NCBI GenBank assembly: GCA_021811155.1
Contig: JAJZPO010000010.1
Coordinates: 3,054-50,746 of the forward strand
Origin: Bacillota bacterium
Lineage (GTDB): Bacteria > Bacillota > Desulfitobacteriia > Desulfitobacteriales > JAJXUE01
Reading direction: 5' to 3'
Length of the DNA: 47,693 nucleotides
This document shows, piece after piece, positions 9,254 through 46,645 of the stretch. The position numbers and the translations under genes are program-made. The stretch's first letter is position 1; every line of letters starts with the position of its first letter. Below the pieces are notes generated by a model, which saw nothing but the letters and a program-made list of their open reading frames with translations, searched no databases and was not told where the DNA came from.

Positions 9254-11077
9254 TCAGCTTGCGTTCAGGCCAAGCCCTTTGCGGCGCTGGCCGATAGCAT
9301 CAGACAGTTTCTCCACCGCCTGATGCGGGTCAGACTCCGGCAGGAAATACCCACCGAACAGATCTTTGAACCCGCCTGTTAAAATGCCGGCTAGCAGGTT
9401 GCTGCCCATCACCGGGGGAGCGGCTCCCAAGTGTACAGGCAGCCCCAAGGCAAGGGCTGAAACAGCAAAGGTTATCGCCCTTTCACTGCTGTACTCAGGC
9501 AGTGAAACAACCATGGGCAGACGGTTAAGGTCTACTCCCAGCTTGTTTGCCAGGTCCACCGCGAGAGCAATAGCCCGGCAAGTATCCAGACACGCCCCGA
9601 GATGCAGCAGTAATGGCCAGGGCCCGCCTGTAGCGCTGGCTTCCCCCGCGGCGGCAAGGAAAGCTTTCAGCCCAGGACCGGCAAATTCGCGGGTTGCCTC
9701 AGGTGTAAGCATCCCATGCCTGGCAAAGGTTCCCGCTCCGCACCCGGCGGTTAGGAGAAGGATGTCGCGCTGGGCCAGTTCTTTGGCCATGAGCAGGAAA
9801 TCCAGGGGCAGCTTAATGTTATTGCAGCCGCTCAAAAGGGCTATGCCCCGAATGCGCCCCTTAACTATATTCTCCAACAAAAACTGCAAGGGATCAGCAG
9901 GGTTTAACTCAGCCAAAGCCGTCAGGATGCTTGAGTTAGAAAAACCGGTCACCGCTCTTGGCGCTTCAGCAGAGGTTGGAGCAGGATTGTCCTGACGGGC
10001 CTTGAATGCCTCCAAAGCTTCCCGCACTATTTTTCTGCCGTTTTCCCCTGCCTCGCTTTCCTTCGGATCGAGCTGATAAACACCTGGTACGCCGGCCCTG
10101 CCAACTGTAAAAATCTTGGTTCCTGTCCGCGCTGCCGCACCTGGCAAGGAAGGATAGCTGCACTGACCGGTAACCACCAGGGCATCCCAGACTCCGGTGA
10201 AAAGGGCTAATTCTTGCAGTATTGCCTGTCCCCAGGCAAACTCCATCACGTTAAACCCTGTTGCGCCGAAAACCTTGGCTTCCTCAGCCAACTCCCCGGC
10301 AGCAATAGCCAGGGATTGCTTCAGAGCCGGGTCAAAACCCTGCACGCCAATATTGACCTCATTGCCGGCAATGGGGGCAATGCGTGCGGCAGCCGGCTGG
10401 GGTGTGCCGAAAACCACATCGTTTAGGTCTGATGCCAGGCGGCTGGCCGCAAAACCGGCAACAGCACACTTGACCCCGCTCAGCAACAGGTCTAATGGGT
10501 CTGAGTCAGCGCCCATGGCGCTGCGCTGCAAGCTGTCCGCTATAGCGCTGTCAATCCCGCGCGGCAGGACGCCGGCTTTGCCCAGGACCTCGATTCGTCC
10601 CTGGGTCAGGGCAGTTTCTATCCATGCCAGCGGTTCATCCCGGTAACCAAACTCGGCCCGGGCCGCATCAGCCAACTGCTGCAGCCTGGCCGCAGGTCCT
10701 GCGGCGGGCGCCAAACCCAACCGTTCGATAATGGGCTTGAGCCCTCCGATGTCCTTTATTCCCTCACCCGTTGCACACAGCAGGCGCAACAGTCCTTTGG
10801 CGTGAGCCGAAAGCGCCGCTGTGCCGGCAGCCACAGCCCGGACAAAGTTCACCGCCGCTATGGTATCCCGTCCTGCTCCGCACACCCCAGACCGGGGCCC
10901 GTTGCCGAAAGGGTCAATGCGGCAAGGACCCTGGCTGCAGTTATGGCAGCAGATGCCGAGTTCACCAAAACCGCATTGAGGCAGCTGGGCCTGGCAGCGG
11001 TCCCAAACCGTTTCTATCCCCAAATTGCAGGCCCTTTCCCACAAAGCCTGAATGCCGGGATCGCTGGGAATTTTCAT
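9254..11077 (-). CDS. CooS-like protein with altered C-cluster (probable non-CO-oxidising variant)
   Basis: 607 residues of the anaerobic Ni-CO dehydrogenase family, near normal length. The N-terminal cluster Cys set is present: C35, C43, C44, C47, C52, C66 in QCGFGELGICCHNCSQGPC and GVCGAG. Four C-cluster Cys are present: C306 (GQCSYPSL), C418 (SGCNN), C446 (AGCGAG), C496 (GACLD). Against the usual family pattern, the Ni/Fe-site His of GHEP is Phe248 (GFDP), the ICCTGNE Cys is replaced at A281/W282 (FAWGQA), and the HSDHG proton-relay stretch reads LSAHAKG. So it should not build a normal [Ni-4Fe-4S] site. Carboxydothermus CODH-V is a described variant with an unusual Fe-S-O cluster and may be the nearest precedent. 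Operon: oxidoreductase, this gene, ferredoxin. Confidence 0.88.
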   Translation of the reverse strand: MKIPSDPGIQALWERACNLGIETVWDRCQAQLPQCGFGELGICCHNCSQGPCRIDPFGNGPRSGVCGAGRDTIAAVNFVRAVAAGTAALSAHAKGLLRLLCATGEGIKDIGGLKPIIERLGLAPAAGPAARLQQLADAARAEFGYRDEPLAWIETALTQGRIEVLGKAGVLPRGIDSAIADSLQRSAMGADSDPLDLLLSGVKCAVAGFAASRLASDLNDVVFGTPQPAAARIAPIAGNEVNIGVQGFDPALKQSLAIAAGELAEEAKVFGATGFNVMEFAWGQAILQELALFTGVWDALVVTGQCSYPSLPGAAARTGTKIFTVGRAGVPGVYQLDPKESEAGENGRKIVREALEAFKARQDNPAPTSAEAPRAVTGFSNSSILTALAELNPADPLQFLLENIVKGRIRGIALLSGCNNIKLPLDFLLMAKELAQRDILLLTAGCGAGTFARHGMLTPEATREFAGPGLKAFLAAAGEASATGGPWPLLLHLGACLDTCRAIALAVDLANKLGVDLNRLPMVVSLPEYSSERAITFAVSALALGLPVHLGAAPPVMGSNLLAGILTGGFKDLFGGYFLPESDPHQAVEKLSDAIGQRRKGLGLNAS

Positions 11078-21163: not shown

Positions 21164-21192
21164 AATGCCATTAAAAGTAGATATTTCCACAC

Positions 21193-21285
21193 TAGGGGCG
21201 CTTTGCACGGCAAGCTGAGAAAGGGAGTCTCAATCCCTTGACCCTTATCACCTGATCCGGATAATGCCGGCGGAGGGAAGTGAAG
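21193..21285 (+). promoter_or_regulatory. TPP riboswitch (THI element)
   Basis: Contains AGGGGCGC, GCTGAGAAA, ACCCTTATCACCTGATCCGG, ATAATGCCGGCGGAGGGAAG: the conserved CUGAGA and ACCUGAUCYGGAUAAUGCCRGCGnAGGGA blocks. It binds thiamine pyrophosphate and represses the downstream thiE-thiS genes. Confidence 0.96.
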
Positions 21286-21298
21286 ACTAAGGTTTTTA

Positions 21299-25163: not shown

Positions 25164-25180
25164 GTCAAGTCCTTTCTCAG

Positions 25181-25290
25181 CCTGCGAGGTTAGTTGACGG
25201 GTTCGGTAGAAAAGAAAAGAACCTACGGGTTGCCCCGATTCACCCCGGAAATATTATTCCCCCGCTCCAGCAAACTGGATTCGGCCTTTG
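25181..25290 (-). promoter_or_regulatory. c-di-AMP riboswitch (ydaO/yuaA class)
   Basis: Minus strand, in order: AAGGCCGAAUCC, GGAGCGGGGGAA, CCGGGGUGAAUCGGGGCAAC, UACCGAACCCGUCAACUAAC, CUCGCAGG. All conserved ydaO blocks are present. It ends about 15 nt before the ribosome site of the NlpC/P60 gene. The extended -10 TGTTATACT at 25307-25315 fits as its promoter. Confidence 0.92.
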
Positions 25291-25306
25291 AGTTTTTCTC
25301 ACAAAC

Positions 25307-29619: not shown

Positions 29620-30007
29620 AAAACCCTCCGGAAAGTATTCCAGTATGAGGTTCAACCTCCAATTGGAAATACCTTCCATCAAATTTATGCTGTTTTCTTC
29701 ATTATTCCCCATGCGAATGGTAAAACCAGCGAATCTTTCGAGACCAGTAAACTTCTACAAGCGCTTGACCCAAAAATCTCCGTTGTTCGTCCAAAAAAGA
29801 AATTGCACAAGTATTAGTATGTCGTAAAAAAGTAGTGAGTCAGTTGGGGACGGTTCTTGATTGACTCACTCAGAAGTCAGAATCAGTACGTCCTATCTTT
29901 AGCCATTGTATCATTCATCAGTGGTGCCGCTGAGCGGCATGGGAGTCTGGAGTCTGATTTCTGACTAATGACCATTCTCAAACTCGGTCGGGAAAGGGGA
30001 GAATTTC
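29620..30007. repeat. 388-nt gene-free gap filled with repeats
   Basis: Holds a family C REP-like palindrome at 29835-29869 (GTGAGTCA...TGACTCAC around GGGGACGGTTCT), a 38-nt dispersed repeat at 29911-29948 shared with 46873-46910 (CATTCATCAGTGGTGCCG, AGCGGCATG), and short GTCAGAATC/GTCTGGAGTCTG units on either side. No further gene is supported. Confidence 0.65.
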
Positions 30008-32612: not shown

Positions 32613-34340
32613 TCAGGTTTCCGCGTTTTGCCCGCCACGGTCTTGCGCCAGGGACCCCGCCCAGGCGAGAATCTGCTCCTTGCTGCCGTTTCCACCCAGG
32701 TTAAGATACACACCGTCCCTTTGCAATGAAACAAACCCCTTAACCTTAAAAGTTTCCATGGGGATGTAGATCCCTTTTTCCCCGCCAATCTCAATTTCCT
32801 CGCGTGGAATCCCGGGGGGCAGGTTGGTATGGTACACCGCCGCCTGGGTCAGGGTAACCTCGGGCAAGGGGTCCCCGGGCAAATGATAGTTCAGCAAGGC
32901 TATGGGTGATCCGGCGATATCCACCAAATGGCATGAGTGCAGCACGAGAGGGCTATCCGTCAAAAGGAAAGGTTCAAAGGGCAGGGCCGCCTTCACTTCC
33001 GCCAGGCTGCAAGCACGTGGCGCCTTAGCTTCGGGCGCAGGCGCAGCTTCAGAGGAGACCTCTGGCGGAAACTCAAACAGGCTGTCAGGGAGTCCGGTGT
33101 TTAGAGTTAGGTTCCTTACCACTTTTCGGCTTACCAGTACCCCCTCCGAATTATACTCCTCCGTCAGCAGCGGCATCCAGGTCAGCTTATCCAGCCAGAT
33201 GTGGGTGGAAACCTGCCCCTCAGCGGCGCCGGGAGCTGCTTGCAGCAGCAGGAGGTGGTAGCTGTTTCTTCCCTCCACATACTCAGTTCCGAGCAGCCGG
33301 GTAGAATGCCCGGTACTAAGGGCTCGCAGAGTTGCGCCGAAATCAACGCCCATAGACTTCAGCATTTCTGCCTCGACCCGTGTGCGCTGAGGTTTGGCAT
33401 TATTTCCTGCCATGAGTACGGCGTCCTGGCCCCGTACAATTGCAATAAACGAGCCGAGCAGGGGATGTTGGGCCTCGCTGCGCAGTAAATCAGGCTTTTT
33501 GAACCATGTTTGGTGTACTAAGGTCTGAGGCGAGCCGCCGCTAATCAGTGTCTGCTCTGTTATATGACTGTAATCCCGGATCTCGGCGTAGACTTCTCCC
33601 ATCTTGGCGGCGATTTCGGCCGAGCTCAGGGAAATTTTACCGGTCAGGCTGTGCAGCAGCCGCAAAAATTCCCGTTGTTCCGCCAAGCGCCCTCTGAGAT
33701 CCTGGTCTTGCGCCAGCCGGGATTCCAGTTGTGCCTCTGCCACAGCATCAAGCCTGCCCTCCAAATAATCGAAAAGCAAATCTTCCATCGGTCTGTCCAC
33801 CGCTCTCTCCTCCCTTCTCTGCCGGAAATCTGATAATAGGCCCCGCAGATTCTCCCTGCCCCTGGAGAGCCTGGACTTTAGCGTACCCAATGGTACGCCG
33901 CAGTGCGCCGCTGCATCCTGCACTTTCCAGCCCATGACATCGCAGAGAACCACAGCTTCTTGAAATTCGGGCGGCAGGGTGCGCATGGCCCGCAGGAATT
34001 CTGTCCGGAAAGTTGCCCGTTCTGCCGGATCCCCGGCTGTACCGGCCAAGCTTGCAACAGTTTCGCTGACCGCCTCCCGCTGGTAAACCCGCAGGGCCAG
34101 ATAGGCTTCATTGCTGACCACACGGTTGAGCCAGGCAGGCAGGGCCTGACTGTCGCGGACTTCACCCAGGTGCCGGTACACTTTAAGCAGAGCATTTTGA
34201 GCCACATCATGGGCCAGTTCCCTGTCCCGCATAATCCTGCCGGCTATGGCCAATGCCCTGGGGTACAACTGCTGCAGCAGTTCTTCCCAGTTCAGGTTGC
34301 CACTGGGCGCGCTCGTGTTGGTGATTTCCCCATCCGTCAC
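32613..34340 (-). CDS. ECF sigma factor fused to anti-sigma-like and LolA-like domains
   Basis: 575 residues in one frame. Sigma region 2 at 21-85 (RIMRDRELAHDVAQNALLKV), region 4 at 115-168 (LPPEFQEAVVLCDVMGWKVQ, GTLKSRLSRGRENL). Residues 183-232 look like a helical anti-sigma module without zinc Cys (MEDLLFDYLEGRLDAVAEAQ). Residues about 240-400 resemble the LolA/RseB fold (SAEIAAKMGEVYAEIRDYSH, WFKKPDLLRSEA), followed by a C-terminal domain (VKGFVSLQRDGVYLNLGGNG). I find no membrane segment between the parts, so the sensor-like half should be cytoplasmic. GTG start, GAGGAG 11 nt upstream. A GGAACC -35 lies upstream (auto-control likely). The yxlE-F-G-like genes follow, as in the Bacillus sigY operon. 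Confidence 0.85.
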   Translation of the reverse strand: MTDGEITNTSAPSGNLNWEELLQQLYPRALAIAGRIMRDRELAHDVAQNALLKVYRHLGEVRDSQALPAWLNRVVSNEAYLALRVYQREAVSETVASLAGTAGDPAERATFRTEFLRAMRTLPPEFQEAVVLCDVMGWKVQDAAAHCGVPLGTLKSRLSRGRENLRGLLSDFRQRREERAVDRPMEDLLFDYLEGRLDAVAEAQLESRLAQDQDLRGRLAEQREFLRLLHSLTGKISLSSAEIAAKMGEVYAEIRDYSHITEQTLISGGSPQTLVHQTWFKKPDLLRSEAQHPLLGSFIAIVRGQDAVLMAGNNAKPQRTRVEAEMLKSMGVDFGATLRALSTGHSTRLLGTEYVEGRNSYHLLLLQAAPGAAEGQVSTHIWLDKLTWMPLLTEEYNSEGVLVSRKVVRNLTLNTGLPDSLFEFPPEVSSEAAPAPEAKAPRACSLAEVKAALPFEPFLLTDSPLVLHSCHLVDIAGSPIALLNYHLPGDPLPEVTLTQAAVYHTNLPPGIPREEIEIGGEKGIYIPMETFKVKGFVSLQRDGVYLNLGGNGSKEQILAWAGSLAQDRGGQNAET

Positions 34341-37052: not shown

Positions 37053-37171
37053 TGAGTCCTCCAAGCGGTAATATTCTTTGACCTATTTTGGCACAAGTTG
37101 TCCGATTCCTGCTTACATTACAGTAAAAGCCCAAGTAATCTTCAGACGATAGCGGGAGGTGCGAAACTCAA

Positions 37172-37366
37172 GTGCCAATCAAAGCTCACATGACTATAGC
37201 GGAAATAATCGCCAGATACCCCAAAACAATCCAGGTATTCACCTACTACGGACTCGCGTGCTACAGCTGAGGCAGCCCGCGCAATACAGCGCTCGAGCAG
37301 GCTGCCCGGGCCCAAGGCATCAACCTGGAAAATCTTTTACGCGACCTCAACACGGCTGCATACTAG
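37172..37366 (+). CDS. DUF1858 redox-disulfide protein, probable selenoprotein (in-frame TGA at codon 33)
   Basis: 64 residues if TGA at 37268-37270 is read as selenocysteine (U): MPIKAHMTIAEIIARYPKTI, then QVFTYYGLACYSUGSPRNTA, ending LLRDLNTAAY. GTG start with GGGAGGT 11 nt upstream. It aligns without gaps to the next gene (MPITGDMSITEIVEKYPKTA...GMHCFGC...LLRDLN); C30 matches C30 and U33 matches C33, so the CxxC motif is CxxU. The frame stays conserved past the TGA (EQAARAQGINLENLLRDLN vs EQGARAHGIDFPSLLRDLN), which a pseudogene would not need to do. A hairpin with an AGGCT loop follows the TGA. DUF1858 proteins are small redox-disulfide proteins, some linked to hybrid-cluster proteins. 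The stop TAG is shared with a REP palindrome. Confidence 0.78.
37271..37311 (+). promoter_or_regulatory. SECIS-like hairpin after the DUF1858 TGA
   Basis: GCTCGAGC (37291-37298), loop AGGCT, GCCCGGGC (37304-37311): seven of eight pairs with one A-C mismatch. The loop starts 29 nt after the TGA and has the GG of bacterial SECIS apical loops (Escherichia coli fdhF has AGGUCU). An alternative outer pairing is GGCAGCC/GGCTGCC. Confidence 0.5.
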
Positions 37367-37395
37367 GACAAAGGGGACGGTTCTGGGCGTCCTAG
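37363..37395. repeat. REP-like palindrome, family B
   Basis: CTAGGAC-AAAGGGGACGGTTCTGGGC-GTCCTAG. Its first TAG (37364-37366) is the stop codon of the selenoprotein candidate. Confidence 0.7.
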
Positions 37396-37516
37396 CTAAA
37401 TCTGTCGAACCGGAGTCTGAAAGACCTGCGCCGGAATGCCGAAAAAACTGATATGAATTTTTAATAGTCTGAAACCCTATTAAAAAAGGCATAATATTCT
37501 CAGGAGGTGAGCGAAA

Positions 37517-37717
37517 ATGCCTATCACCGGTGATATGAGTATTACGGAAATAGTTGAAAAATATCCAAAAACGGCAGATGTGTTCCTGCGCTACGGCATG
37601 CACTGTTTCGGCTGCATAGCCGCACGTTATGAAAACGTGGAACAGGGGGCGAGGGCCCACGGCATCGATTTCCCCAGTTTGCTGCGCGACTTAAACATGG
37701 TAACGGAACAAAAATAG
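37517..37717 (+). CDS. DUF1858 redox-disulfide protein, Cys form
   Basis: 66 residues; ATG with AGGAGG nine nt upstream. One DUF1858 domain: helix (MSITEIVEKYPKTADVFLRY), redox motif GMHCFGC (C30, C33), and YENVEQGARAHGIDFPSLLR. This is the hybrid-cluster-protein-associated disulfide family; the two Cys are taken to form a reversible disulfide or to bind a metal or thiol ligand. It follows the Sec form by 150 nt containing a REP unit. No hybrid-cluster protein gene is in the window. The CooS-like protein at 9254 belongs to the same fold superfamily but is far away. Confidence 0.9.
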   Translation: MPITGDMSITEIVEKYPKTADVFLRYGMHCFGCIAARYENVEQGARAHGIDFPSLLRDLNMVTEQK

Positions 37718-46442: not shown

Positions 46443-46477
46443 GCTAGGATAAAGGGGACGGTTCTATCCGTCCTAGC
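46443..46477. repeat. REP-like palindrome, family B
   Basis: GCTAGGAT-AAAGGGGACGGTTCTATCC-GTCCTAGC, with the GGGGACGGTTCT core. Confidence 0.7.
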
Positions 46478-46529: not shown

Positions 46530-46563
46530 GTGAGTCAAGCATGAACCGTCCCCGCTAACTCAC
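46530..46563. repeat. REP-like palindrome, family C (GTGAGTCA...AACTCAC)
   Basis: GTGAGTCA-AGCATGAACCGTCCCCGCT-AACTCAC; the opposite strand has the GGGGACGGTTC core. Same family as 29835-29869. Confidence 0.7.
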
Positions 46564-46586
46564 GGAAGCGTAAGAACCGTCCCTTT

Positions 46587-46645
46587 GCTTCTGCTGACTC
46601 CTGACTCCTGACTCCTGGCTCCTGTCTTCTGGCTTCTGCCCTGAA
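46587..46645. repeat. simple dispersed repeat (TGACTCCTGACTCC type)
   Basis: TGCTGACTCCTGACTCCTGA repeated, then CTCCTGGCTCCTGTCTTCTG and GCTTCTG. The longest run of this unit in the window. Confidence 0.65.

Follow-up and report, generated by a model that had tools for sequence, protein, structure and literature searches.

The window, that is, the whole stretch of 47,693 nucleotides analysed here, carries two neighbouring DUF1858 genes on its plus strand. The first of these (37172–37366) is predicted to encode a selenocysteine (Sec)-containing protein. Its reading frame starts with a GTG at 37172, runs over 32 codons to a TGA at 37268–37270, which is the only in-frame TGA, and continues for another 31 sense codons, as the original prediction had stated, to a TAG at 37364–37366. 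With TGA translated as Sec (U), the 64 aa product (VPIKAHM...CYSUGSPRN...LLRDLNTAAY) matched the profiles PF08984 (DUF1858; 53.8 bits, cut-off 32.2) and TIGR03980 (61.8 bits, cut-off 44.95), in whose scoring the profile programs treat U as C. The predicted ribosome-binding site, GGGAGGTG, was read directly at 37154–37161 (+), 10 nt 5' of the GTG, and GGGAGGTG also lies upstream of the GTG of the orthologous Sec gene in a second species of the genus. When 36 homologues were aligned, six columns were invariant, among them C30 and position 33 of the motif C30-x-x-C33. The TGA occupies the second of these two positions, exactly where the second redox Cys had been claimed to be replaced, and is read here as U33 of a CxxU motif.

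The second gene (37517–37717, +) encodes a Cys paralogue of 66 aa with the motif CFGC (PF08984, 70.7 bits; TIGR03980, 87.7 bits), and its ribosome-binding site, AGGAGGTG, was read directly at 37502–37509 (+). A distance of 150 nt separates the stop codon of the Sec gene from the ATG of the Cys gene. The ungapped alignment of the two proteins on which the original prediction was based is real, with 50% identity over 60 aa (E = 3e-23). Between both genes, and overlapping the stop codon of the Sec gene, direct reading revealed an imperfect palindrome, CTAGGACAAAGGGGACGGTTCTGGGCGTCCTAG, at 37362–37396 (+), which resembles REP-like intergenic elements, is kept in the second species and is not needed for Sec insertion. 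Its core, GGGGACGGTTC, occurs four times in the window (37362–37396, 46445–46477, 29830–29870 and 46530–46590) vs 0.01 occurrences expected. A search of the host genome with the palindrome pattern yielded three exact matches only, and missed the window's own element, the spacer of which is longer. The host genome also contains four further Cys-form DUF1858 domains (on contigs C96, C144, C81 and C97), giving six copies in total, and two of these four lie in frames of approximately 310 aa that are possible fusions.

Other features of the window comprise two c-di-AMP riboswitches (1–110 and 25167–25296, minus strand) and one TPP riboswitch (21184–21295, plus strand), all above their gathering scores, while an Rfam search returned no match at the Sec-gene locus. 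On the minus strand, a 614-aa frame (9377–10231) shows weak similarity to hybrid cluster protein and possibly represents a carbon monoxide dehydrogenase, and a 575-aa frame (32613–34340) combines the start of an ECF sigma factor with a C-terminal part of approximately 400 residues.

An orthologue of the Sec gene, 85% identical and with the same TGA, was found in a metagenome-assembled genome (MAG) of the second species (DBS2-4.bin25, contig JAJYNB010000150.1). This contig ends at the end of the Sec gene. Another contig of the MAG opens with the identical gene end, followed by the intergenic element, a Cys copy with 98% identity and the acyl-CoA ligase found in the window as well, and the tandem is thus conserved in both species of the genus. 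Past the TGA, five codon differences between the two species are silent and two change the amino acid, the last one at the contig end. Over the 27 codons that directly follow the TGA, the NG86 method gave a dN of 0.017 and a dS of 0.36, compared with a dN of 0.124 and a dS of 0.659 before the TGA. The resulting dN/dS ratios are approximately 0.05 past and 0.19 before the TGA, which means that the gene is better preserved in the portion that would stay untranslated if the TGA acted as a normal stop.

The TGA is not confined to this genus. DUF1858 matches at E ≤ 1e-9 were obtained in 93 of the 399 Bacillota genomes searched, and 11 genomes besides the window's own had a TGA inside the match. These 11 genomes contributed 12 loci, in all of which the TGA was located at exactly codon 33, so that it occupies the identical codon in all 14 Sec loci (the window, the same-genus orthologue and the 12 others). 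A class-level search around one of these 12 loci listed four more candidate rows with a TGA. One row (G274) had been listed as a stop-containing homologue with TAA, and was rejected when its retrieved locus proved to encode a Cys form whose 60-aa domain is free of stops. Homologues that keep the TGA and lose the frame behind it had been named as evidence against a selenoprotein; at the Sec loci, the frame past the TGA was retained together with the TGA.

These comparisons bear on two alternative explanations of the stop codon. The host genome is a draft in 149 contigs, and an error of sequencing or assembly at 37268–37270 might therefore be suspected. However, the TGA also occurs in the independent same-genus MAG and at the 12 loci of the 11 other genomes. 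With the same codon affected in independent genomes, such an error can be regarded as ruled out, and the original prediction's proposal that resequencing might reveal TGC/TGT or TGG at 37268 is countered by the same observation. The gene could also be a decaying copy of a Cys gene, with the TGA as a mere nonsense mutation and the later frame as a relic. An intact related Cys gene located only 150 nt downstream and the imperfect stem of the window's SECIS-type hairpin (see below) would fit this scenario. In contrast, decay does not account for a constraint that is stronger past the TGA than before it, for the sharing of the TGA with 13 other loci, for a stop placed exactly on the redox Cys, or for the conservation of the start and the ribosome-binding site. 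The conserved TGA and the purifying selection in practice refute this scenario, which we consider very improbable.

The host genome, 3.22 Mb in size and 99.5% complete, possesses the machinery for Sec synthesis and insertion. A tRNA-Sec was detected with 69.3 bits, in agreement with ARAGORN (tRNA-SeC(tca)), and is adjoined on contig C10 by selB (632 aa), while contig C22 carries both selA (596 bits) and selD (408 bits). All four genes that the original prediction had proposed to look for (selA, selB, selC and selD) are thus present, and the host, with its tRNA-Sec(UCA), is equipped for making Sec proteins. The host selD (C22:17879–18808) has an in-frame TGA of its own at the usual catalytic Cys (SSKAGUGCKIG). 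This catalytic position is occupied by Sec in many SelD proteins, and the host SelD is probably a selenoprotein itself, as predicted from its sequence. For the window gene, decoding of the UGA as an amino acid other than Sec (as Trp, as Cys or by near-cognate read-through) would be compatible with the sequence taken by itself. It is nevertheless extremely unlikely, given the tRNA-Sec with a UCA anticodon and the complete set of sel genes, the coincidence of codon 33 with the redox Cys position, and a SECIS-type hairpin that is specific to the TGA forms.

This hairpin lies at 37291–37311 (+) and was identified by folding and by comparison across the Sec loci. Its arms (37291–37298 and 37304–37311) form an eight-pair stem that includes one A.C mismatch at the third pair, enclose the loop AGGCU (37299–37303) and have a folding energy of −9.8 kcal/mol. 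A stem with an AGGCT loop had been predicted behind the TGA; it is present, although the spacing is 28 nt instead of the 29 nt claimed and the stem is imperfect. According to published limits, a bacterial SECIS has an apical loop of 3–9 nt, an upper stem of 4–16 bp, a G in the first two loop positions, a distance of 16–37 nt from the UGA and an energy of at most −7.5 (PMC13188914). For the hairpin of the window, the loop, the position of the guanine, the 28-nt spacing and the energy of −9.8 lie within these limits; its upper stem reaches eight pairs only if the A.C mismatch is tolerated. Most of the related Sec genes have hairpins within the limits.

A common hairpin, RGC-AGGNU-GCY, is present in 12 of the 14 Sec genes at 24–44 nt from the T of the TGA, with C-G, U-A or A-U as outer pairs. 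It fits the loop form N-G-G-N-N' and the spacing described for bacterial SECIS elements (PMC13188914). At two core pairs of the stem, both bases differ between genes while pairing is maintained (C-G/U-A/A-U and A-U/G-C). An AGG.T loop with at least four of five pairs was found in 12/14 Sec forms vs 0/56 Cys forms; the corresponding p = 9e-12 is too small, because the sequences are related and do not represent 14 independent events, yet the contrast between Sec and Cys forms is clear despite this relatedness. When synonymous codons were redrawn with the protein held fixed, full five-pair stems were present in 10/10 members of the main Sec clade vs 0.5 expected, whereas at the same columns of the 56 Cys homologues the stem count matched the expectation from synonymous resampling. 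The Sec genes G204 and G138 have no such hairpin in register, and other hairpins fold nearby.

For the window pair alone, synonymous resampling was not significant (p = 0.09). As free RNA of 44–56 nt, the region had a z-score of about −1 and adopted a competing GGCAGCC/GGCUGCC pairing as its minimum-energy fold, in which the GGCAGCC directly after the UGA pairs with the loop region. The window's hairpin is therefore unconvincing by itself, and the comparative evidence carries the case. With the UGA in the A site, the bases of GGCAGCC would be placed inside the ribosome, which could allow the downstream hairpin to form.

Hence, we conclude that 37172–37366 is almost certainly a genuine selenoprotein gene, whose actual incorporation of Sec we infer from the combined data. 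Each of the refuting tests named in the original prediction that was run supports this reading. A gene that gene callers would normally lose is thus shown to be real by comparative evidence that goes beyond a single reading frame. According to the mechanism we propose, the ribosome would start translation at the GTG (37172); Sec-tRNA(UCA) would be delivered to the UGA (37268) by SelB, itself bound to the hairpin that follows after 28 nt; and after Sec insertion the ribosome would continue to the TAG at 37364–37366.

The arrangement of a Sec and a Cys copy in tandem had been called unusual, and among the Sec loci inspected it indeed occurred only in the window's genus; at the other loci inspected, no such tandem was seen and the Cys matches were located on other contigs. 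In a tree of 73 rows and 57 columns, the Cys copy grouped with the Cys forms of its own order (98/93), while the Sec copy was placed on a long branch joined only by the same-genus orthologue. As far as this tree can tell, these separate positions indicate that the Sec copy did not arise by recent duplication of its neighbour. The best tree contained four Sec/Cys changes, but with only 57 columns available a single Sec clade was not rejected (p-AU 0.43). An independent Cys-to-Sec change may have occurred in the genus. We consider it doubtful that the DUF1858 domain acquired its Sec in this genus separately from the main CxxU clade and that the adjacent Sec and Cys copies form a dedicated pair. 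In such a pair, for example, one copy could reduce the other, or replace it under selenium scarcity.

An AlphaFold2 model of the Sec protein (pLDDT 87) consists of four helices and resembles the DUF1858 NMR structures 2K5E (TM 0.85) and 2K53 (TM 0.82) as well as the N-terminal domain of YtfE (5FNN; TM 0.75). The Foldseek E-values of these short matches were 1e-3 and weaker, and 2K5E and 2K53 were also found by sequence. Helices 2 and 3 are connected by the loop that holds the CxxU motif, and the confidence of the model is lowest for the Sec-bearing loop residues 31–40 (pLDDT 67). Judging from motif and family, the protein is likely a small selenol-thiol redox module, in which CxxU in place of the thiol pair CxxC would cycle through a selenenylsulfide. 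A DUF1858 relative, DrpB of Thermus, occurs in a nitrate/NO setting (PMC6282519), and a DUF1858-related gene controlled by NnrR in Bradyrhizobium was 29-fold down in the mutant (PMC6710368). By analogy with these relatives, a specific link of the Sec protein to NO or Fe-S stress may be considered as a tentative lead, albeit an unlikely one. The nearest neighbours of the Sec loci vary between genomes, and since they are not conserved, the genomic context gives no partner. A link to hybrid cluster protein through gene neighbourhood was rejected, because the host gene is present but located on another contig (C106).

Sec forms of DUF1858 are already known. A 'DUF1858 domain-containing protein, pfam08984, CxxU, WP_012065717.1' is listed among the prokaryotic selenoproteins in reviews from 2022 (PMC9312934) and 2026 (PMC13188914), and the window gene thus does not represent a new selenoprotein family. 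This answers the question, raised with the original prediction, of whether such forms had been reported, and lowers the novelty of the prediction, not its correctness. New here are the divergent Sec lineage and the conserved Sec/Cys tandem, which was found only in this genus and of which we found no description in the literature, as far as our partial coverage extends. The set of 14 DUF1858 genes with Sec, in 12 of which the SECIS loop (AGGNU) can be recognised, can be used for finding more, and the conserved tandem offers a side-by-side test of what Sec contributes to a DUF1858 redox domain.

The window protein shares PF08984 and a Sec at the second CxxC position with the catalogued exemplar WP_012065717.1, which was compared by its listed motif only. 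It differs from this known selenoprotein in its tandem arrangement with a Cys copy, and from most of the other Sec forms detected here in having CYSUGSPRN instead of CLGUGG or CVGUGG. Its match to TIGR03980, the hybrid cluster protein-associated redox disulfide domain, is full-length, and the CxxC columns are invariant; compared with the Cys form of this family, however, Sec takes the place of Cys and the hybrid cluster protein gene is not adjacent. The N-terminal domain ScdA_N of the RIC proteins (YtfE, ScdA), which function in Fe-S cluster repair, has the same four-helix fold, and the window protein matches its profile PF04405 weakly (32.8 bits, just above the cut-off of 32.5). In ScdA_N, however, the cysteines form a CC pair, and a di-iron domain comes next in the protein, whereas no such domain follows in the window protein.
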